From assembly GCA_021162545.1 (NCBI GenBank), contig JAGGYM010000036.1, positions 1 through 38,970 on the forward strand: a DNA stretch of 38,970 nt, written 5' to 3'. Below the pieces are notes generated by a model. That model was not told the DNA's origin and ran no database searches. It was given only the letters and a program-made list of their open reading frames with translations. The position numbers and the translations under genes are program-made. This DNA is from Dehalococcoidia bacterium. Its GTDB lineage: Bacteria > Chloroflexota > Dehalococcoidia > GIF9 > AB-539-J10. The first letter of the stretch is position 1, and the number at the start of each line of letters is the position of its first letter. This document shows positions 6,754 through 37,975 of this stretch, one piece after another.

Positions 6754-6960
6754 GTCATGGCGAATCGAGCTTATCCGTCATTGCGAGCCTTCATCAGACT
6801 GTCGTTGCGAGCCTTCCTTTTCTGGTCTTTGCGAAGAGCCGCAGGCGACGTGGCAATCTCGTCCCTCTTCGTCTTTGCGAGGCAGCATCGCTGCCGTGGC
6901 AATCTCATGCAAATCTCTTCCCCTCAGATTGCTTCGTCGCTACGTTCCTGGCAATGACGG
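6754..6960. repeat. Cluster of dispersed-repeat units in the hisZ/nfeD intergenic region
   Basis: gtcattgcgagcc (6777), gtcgttgcgagcc (6801), gtctttgcgaagagccgcaggcgacgtggcaatctc (6825), gtctttgcgaggcagcatcgctgccgtggcaatctc (6871), and inverted agattgcttcgtcgctacgttcctggcaatgac (6927). Confidence 0.87.
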
Positions 6961-19148: not shown

Positions 19149-19219
19149 GTATTCCCGGAGGCCCTTTCGGGAGAGTGTCGTTAAGAGCACAAGGCAAACT
19201 TCGCCTCCATTCACGGGAA

Positions 19220-19252
19220 ATTGCCACGTTGCCTGCGGCTCCTCACAATGAC
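19220..19252 (-). repeat. Copy of the 'GTCATTGCGAGGAGC...GTGGCAAT' dispersed repeat
   Basis: Minus strand gtcattgtgaggagccgcaggcaacgtggcaat, nearly identical to 6825-6857 and related to copies in wecC. Confidence 0.8.
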
Positions 19253-36281: not shown

Positions 36282-36532
36282 TCAGCCCTTTTATTTCATA
36301 TACGATGCGGTTAGCATCGGGATAATAAGCCTTCTCCTGGGCAGGACTGGCTGGAGCGGAAGCGTCGGGTAGTGAGACTCATACAACCAGCCGGAAAGAG
36401 ATTGAGCAGCTTTTTGCTGTATTTGAGCGTGACATAGCGGATGCCAAGGCAGAAGCCCTTCTATTTTGCCTGTTCGTGGGTTATACTTAGCGACAGGCAG
36501 ATTGAGCATTGGCAGAAGAGAGCACTTCCCAC

Positions 36533-37975
36533 ATGAAAGATAAGCTGGATGGCGTTACCGTCTGCGTGGTGGGGCTGGGCTATGTCGGCCTGCCCCTGGC
36601 AGAGGCCTTTGCCGAACACTTCAAGGTCATCGGCTTCGACACCAACCCTGCCGTCATTGCGAGGAGCGCAACAGAGCGAAGCGACGCGGCAATCTCTCGC
36701 CCCTCGACCAACCTGGCTTTCACCTCCAACGCTGAAGATATAAGACAGGCCGACTTCGTTATCATCGCCGTTCCCACGCCGGTAACCAAATCCAGGGAGC
36801 CGGACCTCTCCTGCGTCAAGAGCGCCGCCGGGACTATCGGACAGAACATGAAGGAAGGCTCCGTCGTCATACTGGAATCCACGGTTTACCCCGGCGTCAC
36901 CGAAGAGGTAGTAAAGCCCATTCTGGAGAAGGAATCGGGCCTCAAGTGCGGCCAGGACTTCAAAGTTGCCTACTCTCCCGAAAGGATAAACCCCGGCGAT
37001 GAAGCTCATGCCATCGGCAGGATAACCAAGGTGGTCGCCGGCATGGACGAGGAAACAACAGGCCTCGTGGCTGAGCTCTATGGCAGAGTCACCGCCAGAA
37101 CTTTCAAGGCCAGAGATATAAAGACCGCCGAGGCCGCCAAGGTGATAGAAAACGTGCAGCGCGATTTGAACATCGCCCTGATGAACGAGCTTTCGCTCAT
37201 CTTCGAAAAGATGGGACTCTGCACAAAAGATGTCCTTGATGCCGCTGCCACCAAGTGGAACTTCCACAGGTATTCACCCGGCCTTGTCGGCGGGCACTGT
37301 ATCCCCGTTGACCCCTACTACCTGGTGTACAAGGCCAAAGAGCTGGGCCACCACCCGCAGGTAATCCTGGCGGGCAGGGCCACGAATGACTACATGCCCA
37401 AACACGTGGCTGAGATGACCATCAAGGCATTGAACGACGTCGGCAAGGTGATAAAAGGCTCGAAAGTTCTCATCATGGGCCTGACTTACAAGGAGAACGT
37501 GGCCGACACCAGGGAGACTCCGGTGAAGGGCATCATCAGGGAACTCAAGGAGTATGGCGTCGATATATACGGCTGCGACCCCCTGCTGGATAACATTGAG
37601 AGCGAATTCGGCATCACTCCCTATGACTTTGGGCTCCTGCCCGCCGGCTCTTTTTCTGTCATTGCGAGAGGCGAAGCCCCGCGGCAATCTGAGGAGGCGT
37701 GGTCATTGCGAGCGAAGCGTGGCAATCTGGAGAGGCATGGTCACCGCGAGGAGAAGCCGAAGCTGCGAGCCGAAGGCGTGGCAGGCAGCAACGAAGCGAT
37801 CTCAACAAGCCGTCTCGACGCGGTAATCCTGGCTGTCGCCCACGACGTCTTCAAGGAAATAACGCTGGACGATATCAAAGACATCATGAAAGGCAATCCC
37901 ATCCTGATAGACATACGCGGCTTCTTCAACCCCGCCGCAGCGGAGGAGCATGGATTTCACTACCGGAGCTTATGA
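36533..37975 (+). CDS. wecC: UDP-N-acetyl-D-mannosamine dehydrogenase-like nucleotide-sugar dehydrogenase with two in-frame repeat-derived segments
   Basis: 'VCVVGLGYVGLPLAEAFAEHF', 'ESTVYPGVTEEV', 'YSPERINPGDEAH', 'GLVGGHCIPVDPYYL', 'LGLTYKENVADTRETP'; foreign-looking 'VIARSATERSDAAIS' and 'SVIARGEAPRQSEEAWSLRAKRGNLERH...'. Confidence 0.92.
   Translation: MKDKLDGVTVCVVGLGYVGLPLAEAFAEHFKVIGFDTNPAVIARSATERSDAAISRPSTNLAFTSNAEDIRQADFVIIAVPTPVTKSREPDLSCVKSAAGTIGQNMKEGSVVILESTVYPGVTEEVVKPILEKESGLKCGQDFKVAYSPERINPGDEAHAIGRITKVVAGMDEETTGLVAELYGRVTARTFKARDIKTAEAAKVIENVQRDLNIALMNELSLIFEKMGLCTKDVLDAAATKWNFHRYSPGLVGGHCIPVDPYYLVYKAKELGHHPQVILAGRATNDYMPKHVAEMTIKALNDVGKVIKGSKVLIMGLTYKENVADTRETPVKGIIRELKEYGVDIYGCDPLLDNIESEFGITPYDFGLLPAGSFSVIARGEAPRQSEEAWSLRAKRGNLERHGHREEKPKLRAEGVAGSNEAISTSRLDAVILAVAHDVFKEITLDDIKDIMKGNPILIDIRGFFNPAAAEEHGFHYRSL
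36653..36697 (+). repeat. Dispersed repeat copy inside wecC (first, N-terminal)
   Basis: gtcattgcgaggagcgcaacagagcgaagcgacgcggcaatctct, read in frame as VIARSATERSDAAIS. Confidence 0.87.
37658..37806 (+). repeat. Tandem dispersed-repeat copies inside wecC (second, C-terminal)
   Basis: Units starting gtcattgcgagaggcg (37658), gtcattgcgagcgaagcgtggcaatctgg (37702) and gtcaccgcgaggagaagccgaag (~37739). Confidence 0.87.

Follow-up and report, generated by a model that had tools for sequence, protein, structure and literature searches.

A short palindromic repeat has entered the reading frame of a wecC-like gene at two sites. On the explanation we favour overall, with a probability of roughly 0.8, the copies are RPE-like REPs (RPE, Rickettsia palindromic element) that are near-neutral and have been filtered by selection. 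The gene lies in the window, the 38,970-nucleotide stretch analysed here (Dehalococcoidia bacterium, assembly GCA_021162545.1, contig JAGGYM010000036.1). Repeat DNA is probably turned into extra protein segments in this lineage, much as in Rickettsia, and in related genomes the repeat lies in frame within many basic enzymes as well.

Repeat units in a wecC-like gene

The preliminary description held that two segments of the gene match a dispersed repeat while the reading frame stays open, and that the window also holds an intergenic family of the same repeat. Both statements stand. When we searched the window with the pattern GTCATTGCGAG-N{2,32}-GGCAATCT, the only three matches fell within wecC, against none in 100 dinucleotide shuffles, and diverged copies were present in two intergenic regions. 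The features are as follows.

36509..37975, + strand: wecC-like ORF, 488 aa, likely start ATG at 36533
36653..36695, + strand: repeat unit 1, exact pattern match; frame VIAR..., codons for about residues 49-63; forms most of helix alphaB in the model
37658..37690, + strand: repeat unit 2a, exact pattern match; frame VIARGEAPRQS; segment missing in orthologs
37702..37728, + strand: repeat unit 2b, exact pattern match; frame SLRAKRGNL; segment missing in orthologs
37740..37803, + strand: repeat unit 2c, degenerate; a 20-nt core is nested in it at 37764-37783
about 6801..6958, both orientations: array between genes, diverged copies of the wecC repeat
19218..19252, - strand: single diverged copy between ORFs, two mismatches

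An example of a predicted repeat-encoded peptide is GEAPRQSEEAWSLR. The C-terminal domain had been described as carrying three tandem units; two are intact, and the third is degenerate. The 20-nt core nested in this third unit recurs, letter for letter, as the core of GTCATTGCGAGCCGAAGGCGTGGCAATCT copies in other parts of the genome and is therefore probably a fourth unit of the C-terminal array.

The product is a predicted member of the UDP-ManNAc/UDP-glucose dehydrogenase family: Pfam matched UDPG_MGDP_dh_N together with the central and C domains, and the three-domain fold and the catalytic Cys (GGHCIP), Lys and Asn motifs of UDP-sugar dehydrogenases are present, with conserved K211, N215 and C264 retained in an alignment with orthologs. 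Its PDB relatives include 4r16, 3g79 and 3ojl, and Foldseek searches with the structure model returned solved UDP-sugar dehydrogenases. Coding scores are good on both sides of every repeat unit. A scan of genome contigs returned only a 29% identical relative. In one related genome (G020, contigs C65, C29 and C86), wecC-like sequence occurs as several short pieces with small open frames, which may be copies that were truncated or frameshifted.

Across the window genome, a 1.39-Mb draft in 67 contigs, the near-identical pattern occurs 25 times (27 with a slightly looser core), and the reversed pattern, used as a control, has no match. Repeats are commonly misassembled and the genome is a draft, so an assembly artefact or a chance similarity has to be weighed. 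Either is highly improbable: the shuffled windows yielded no match, the four wecC units differ from one another and from other genomic copies, and many other assemblies show the same arrangement.

Orthologs without the inserts and a structure model

Alignment with orthologs from relatives, which the preliminary description had proposed, showed the conserved WecC blocks before, between and after the inserts to be in frame. The orthologs (63-75% identity) come from G002 and genus g14, genomes with no strict match to the repeat pattern, and every one of them lacks the C-terminal segment (about residues 379-434), with conserved blocks resuming after it. At site 1, the g14 orthologs (L023-L028) are about 7 aa shorter, whereas the repeat there spans about 15 codons; native residues have therefore been lost. 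The closest ortholog (L022, in G002) has its own unrelated and even longer segment at this position, after beta2, and thus site 1 tolerates change or insertion in two lineages. No ortholog or closer strain among the genomes compared shares the wecC inserts, and many relatives have no wecC ortholog.

When the inserts are left aside, wecC differs from its G002 ortholog at 51, 45 and 197 first, second and third codon positions, and 148 of 229 differing codons are synonymous. The third-position excess shows that selection has acted on the enzyme over the long term, but not that it has done so since the insertion.

We modelled the protein with AlphaFold2 (alignment of 21 sequences, mean pLDDT 81.7), obtaining the expected fold, intact outside the array. 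The C-terminal array (379-433) is modelled as disordered (pLDDT ~34) between confident strands, in line with the earlier proposal that the inserts form surface loops. Unit 1 departs from that proposal: the model builds most of helix alphaB (47-59) from it, and confidence drops below 50 at residues 58-64. In the model, site 1 is thus not simply an added loop but occupies the place of the native helix alphaB, and replacement of part of this NAD-domain helix could have impaired the enzyme.

This raises an alternative reading in which wecC is a pseudogene in the making, already inactivated by its inserts, with the frame still open because the repeat has few sense stops and the inactivation is recent. 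In its favour are the four units at two sites, one of which takes the place of helix alphaB in the NAD-binding domain, and the dispensability of the gene in many relatives. We nevertheless consider it unlikely, since the remaining ORF is intact with conserved catalytic residues and good coding scores around every unit, degenerate unit 2c has accumulated changes without gaining a stop codon, and relatives retain such inserts in PheT, SecA and TilS. We infer instead that WecC is made with its inserts and is active, and that the inserts are near-neutral.

Distribution and form of the repeat

Within the family, 38 of 52 genomes carry the repeat, with a maximum of 96 copies, as do 48 of 301 genomes sampled over the phylum. 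The same or a near-identical sequence occurs on alphaproteobacterial plasmids, with at least 40 matches in one Novosphingobium resinovorum plasmid record; no Rickettsia record was among the plasmid matches. Among 255 copies, the core ranges from 24 to 45 nt, the tag is TGTC in 212 and CGTC in 27, and the commonest tails are CTCA (83), CTCG (52), CTCT (26) and CTCC (20). Continuous pairing of the outer stem (ATTGC/GCAAT) extends over 5 bp, beyond which come mismatches and an inner stem that varies. Units begin with GTCAT, the reverse complement of ATGAC.

Several other repeat-associated loci stood out. Many predicted viral contigs carry the repeat (L079-L158 at least), among them L137, a four-fold tandem with 33-nt spacing, and a phage portal-like gene (L335, G010:C41) contains four copies, three in sense and one in antisense orientation. 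Antisense copies in two genera (L073, G000:C51; L235, G018:C6) are followed directly by a DegV-like protein that has its C-terminal half but lacks the N-terminal one; the L073 ORF, which lies beside an array, was considered as a clean insert and proved instead to be a C-terminal remnant. We also rejected as genes the other long ORFs over repeats in the window genome (209-367 aa), whose coding scores are low or negative; they look like non-coding arrays that are open since the repeat has few stops. Apart from wecC, the gene set of this genome has almost no intragenic copies, which counts against the explanation we favour.

In-frame copies in relatives and their orientation

In relatives, the repeat lies in frame in a broad set of hosts whose Pfam families were confirmed (names finer than the Pfam family are our reading): PheT, LytB/IspH, PurC, HisG, CobU, Mfd, SecA, PGI, MnmA, HypF, ThiD2/ThiE, an aconitase-family enzyme, TilS, an aminotransferase, a dihydroorotase-like amidohydrolase, CarA, NadC and a DHODB electron-transfer subunit, with PheT and Mfd found repeatedly. 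The RPE-like effect suggested in the preliminary description, new peptide segments arising from a palindrome, therefore extends well beyond wecC. Other repeat-like peptides, such as SGEILRFAQNDSSA and RDSSVAEFTLSEAEVLPQNDKK, occur in Mfd (L222 in G027; L316 in G010) and in the DHODB subunit (L269/L331), which suggests a putative second repeat family likewise translated in frame.

We then quantified orientation in fetched regions of seven draft genomes, calling genes with a simple home-made codon-usage gene finder, so that the calls are approximate. Of 263 non-redundant copies, 53 were intragenic, 47 in sense and 6 in antisense orientation, as against a 63:49 split for copies lying between co-directional genes (p = 2e-5, Fisher test). 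After shared insertions had been merged manually, about 33 sense and 3 antisense events remained (p = 5e-5), in an approximate list whose events are not all independent. Nearly all sense events (32 of 33; p = 6e-5) used one of two frames, VIAsEAKQS and SLRAkRSNL, with MnmA the lone exception; the wecC units use exactly these two.

The share of stop-free copies is 84-92% per sense frame and 43-79% per antisense frame, a gap too small to give the orientation bias. Intergenic copies show no comparable bias, and the pattern therefore points to selection purging bad insertions rather than to a directional insertion process.

Age, decay and mobility

Orthologs in relatives share insertion sites in PheT, NadC, PurC, PGI, adenine deaminase and Mfd. 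PheT carries repeats at three different sites. Thirteen of the aligned genomes have a repeat at site B, across several genera, with sequences ranging from LSLRAQRSNL to the decayed LSPTARQSNL and the frame always kept. Two species of one genus, G020 and G027 (compared at L354 and L355), have identical flanks at this site around 18 bp in the one and a 33-bp repeat in the other, and gain or loss there has therefore proceeded by replacement, not by plain insertion. Genomes G007 and G027 share insertions in four genes, in which the repeat codons are nearly unchanged while synonymous codon differences have accumulated in the flanks (PGI 69/106, adenine deaminase 39/56, PurC 19/34, Mfd 59/128). Repeat-bearing genes of relatives show purifying selection.

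Such persistence invites the reading that the repeats have been truly domesticated, recruited as a beneficial loop or linker or as an RNA or DNA signal within the gene; some insertions, those at sites B and C of PheT and the one in NadC, have long been retained across genera, and insertions recur at the same sites. We regard recruitment of this kind as rather improbable. The host proteins are many and unrelated, old copies decay, the AlphaFold2 model leaves the wecC array disordered, and wecC itself shows no sign of benefit. A role in RNA structure is likewise unsupported for the wecC units, which fold no better than shuffled sequence.

As a source of mobility, we considered RAYT transposases and rejected them: Y1_Tnp (PF01797) has no match in the window genome or in the repeat-rich G010 and G005, and the RAYT-like loci of relatives almost always lack adjoining repeats (1 of 14 has a copy nearby).

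Relation to known repeat systems

Published repeat classes invite comparison. In the R. japonica study, ATGAC is characteristic of RPE-4/6/7, which lie in frame at shared, solvent-exposed sites, including in PheT (PMC3767692; the RPE class is also treated in PMC2229807). RPE-6 and RPE-4 of R. conorii have been equated with CGTC-1 and CGTC-4 REPs (Di Nocera et al. 2013, PMC3733652), a group that includes intragenic units, has no dedicated transposase, and is defined by an unpaired CGTC (or TGTC, CCTC) tag at one end, a stem of 8-9 bp, a loop of 4-5 nt and a 3-nt tail fitting CCA (PMC3733652).

Like RPE-4/6/7, the wecC repeat is palindromic, lies in frame in solvent-exposed parts of conserved proteins, occupies ortholog-shared sites, exists in decayed forms and has PheT among its hosts; the ATGAC motif is also common to both (as GTCAT in the wecC repeat), although five nucleotides are weak evidence. 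This motif and the T/CGTC tag make doubtful the earlier statement that the repeat is unrelated in sequence to RPEs. It differs in that its units are shorter and often singletons, in its host set, and in its lineage, since it resides in family, order and phylum relatives of the window genome, with no Rickettsia record among the plasmid matches. With CGTC REPs it shares the terminal tag, AT at the ends of the stem, a length of 20-45 bp, and dispersed, often paired copies with intragenic units and no dedicated transposase. In contrast to them, it has a 5-bp outer stem with a variable inner stem and a tail that is mostly CTCA or CTCG, and its host phylum is, as far as can be told, not listed for CGTC in PMC3733652. 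GTAG REPs mobilised by RAYT transposases are also small palindromic repeats with some intragenic copies, but the wecC repeat has no GTAG tag and, apart from the one nearby copy, no RAYT association.

The repeat is thus RPE-like and CGTC-like, likened by tag, motif and behaviour rather than by alignment, and kinship with RPEs is plausible; it is not a proven CGTC member, because neither stem nor tail agrees with the definition in print. The phenomenon itself is known. In a literature search that was incomplete, we did not find this lineage, the clarity of its empty and decayed sites, or a measured frame rule, and the only texts matching the repeat sequence itself were primers.

Discussion

Under the explanation we favour, in which RPE-like REP copies entered wecC as near-neutral inserts, a dispersed palindromic REP of about 27-45 bp, with a T/CGTC tag and resembling RPE-4/6/7, would have entered the wecC frame at two sites, having spread by some process for which no dedicated transposase was found. 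In most copies the sense frames of the repeat are free of stops, and they would encode short hydrophilic peptides. Sense copies in the VIAsEAKQS or SLRAkRSNL frame, landing within a tolerant loop or exposed helix, would leave a working enzyme. Tolerated copies would be retained and then decay slowly by in-frame substitution, and intragenic copies in other orientations or positions would be purged by selection.

The case for protein-coding palindromes has drawn mainly on Rickettsia, a genus in which genome decay and an intracellular lifestyle make interpretation harder. In the present family, many sequenced relatives provide empty, shared and decayed sites together with a measurable rule of orientation and frame, so that the origin and neutrality of repeat-born protein segments become testable by comparison and simple enzyme assays. 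A bolder view, which we hold only tentatively, is that the repeat, perhaps itself moulded to do no harm once translated, might be a recurrent source of new core-enzyme segments in this family, entering in sense and in two frames, persisting at the level of genera and being gradually rewritten, such that some loops and helices, WecC alphaB for example, would be repeat-born and functional.
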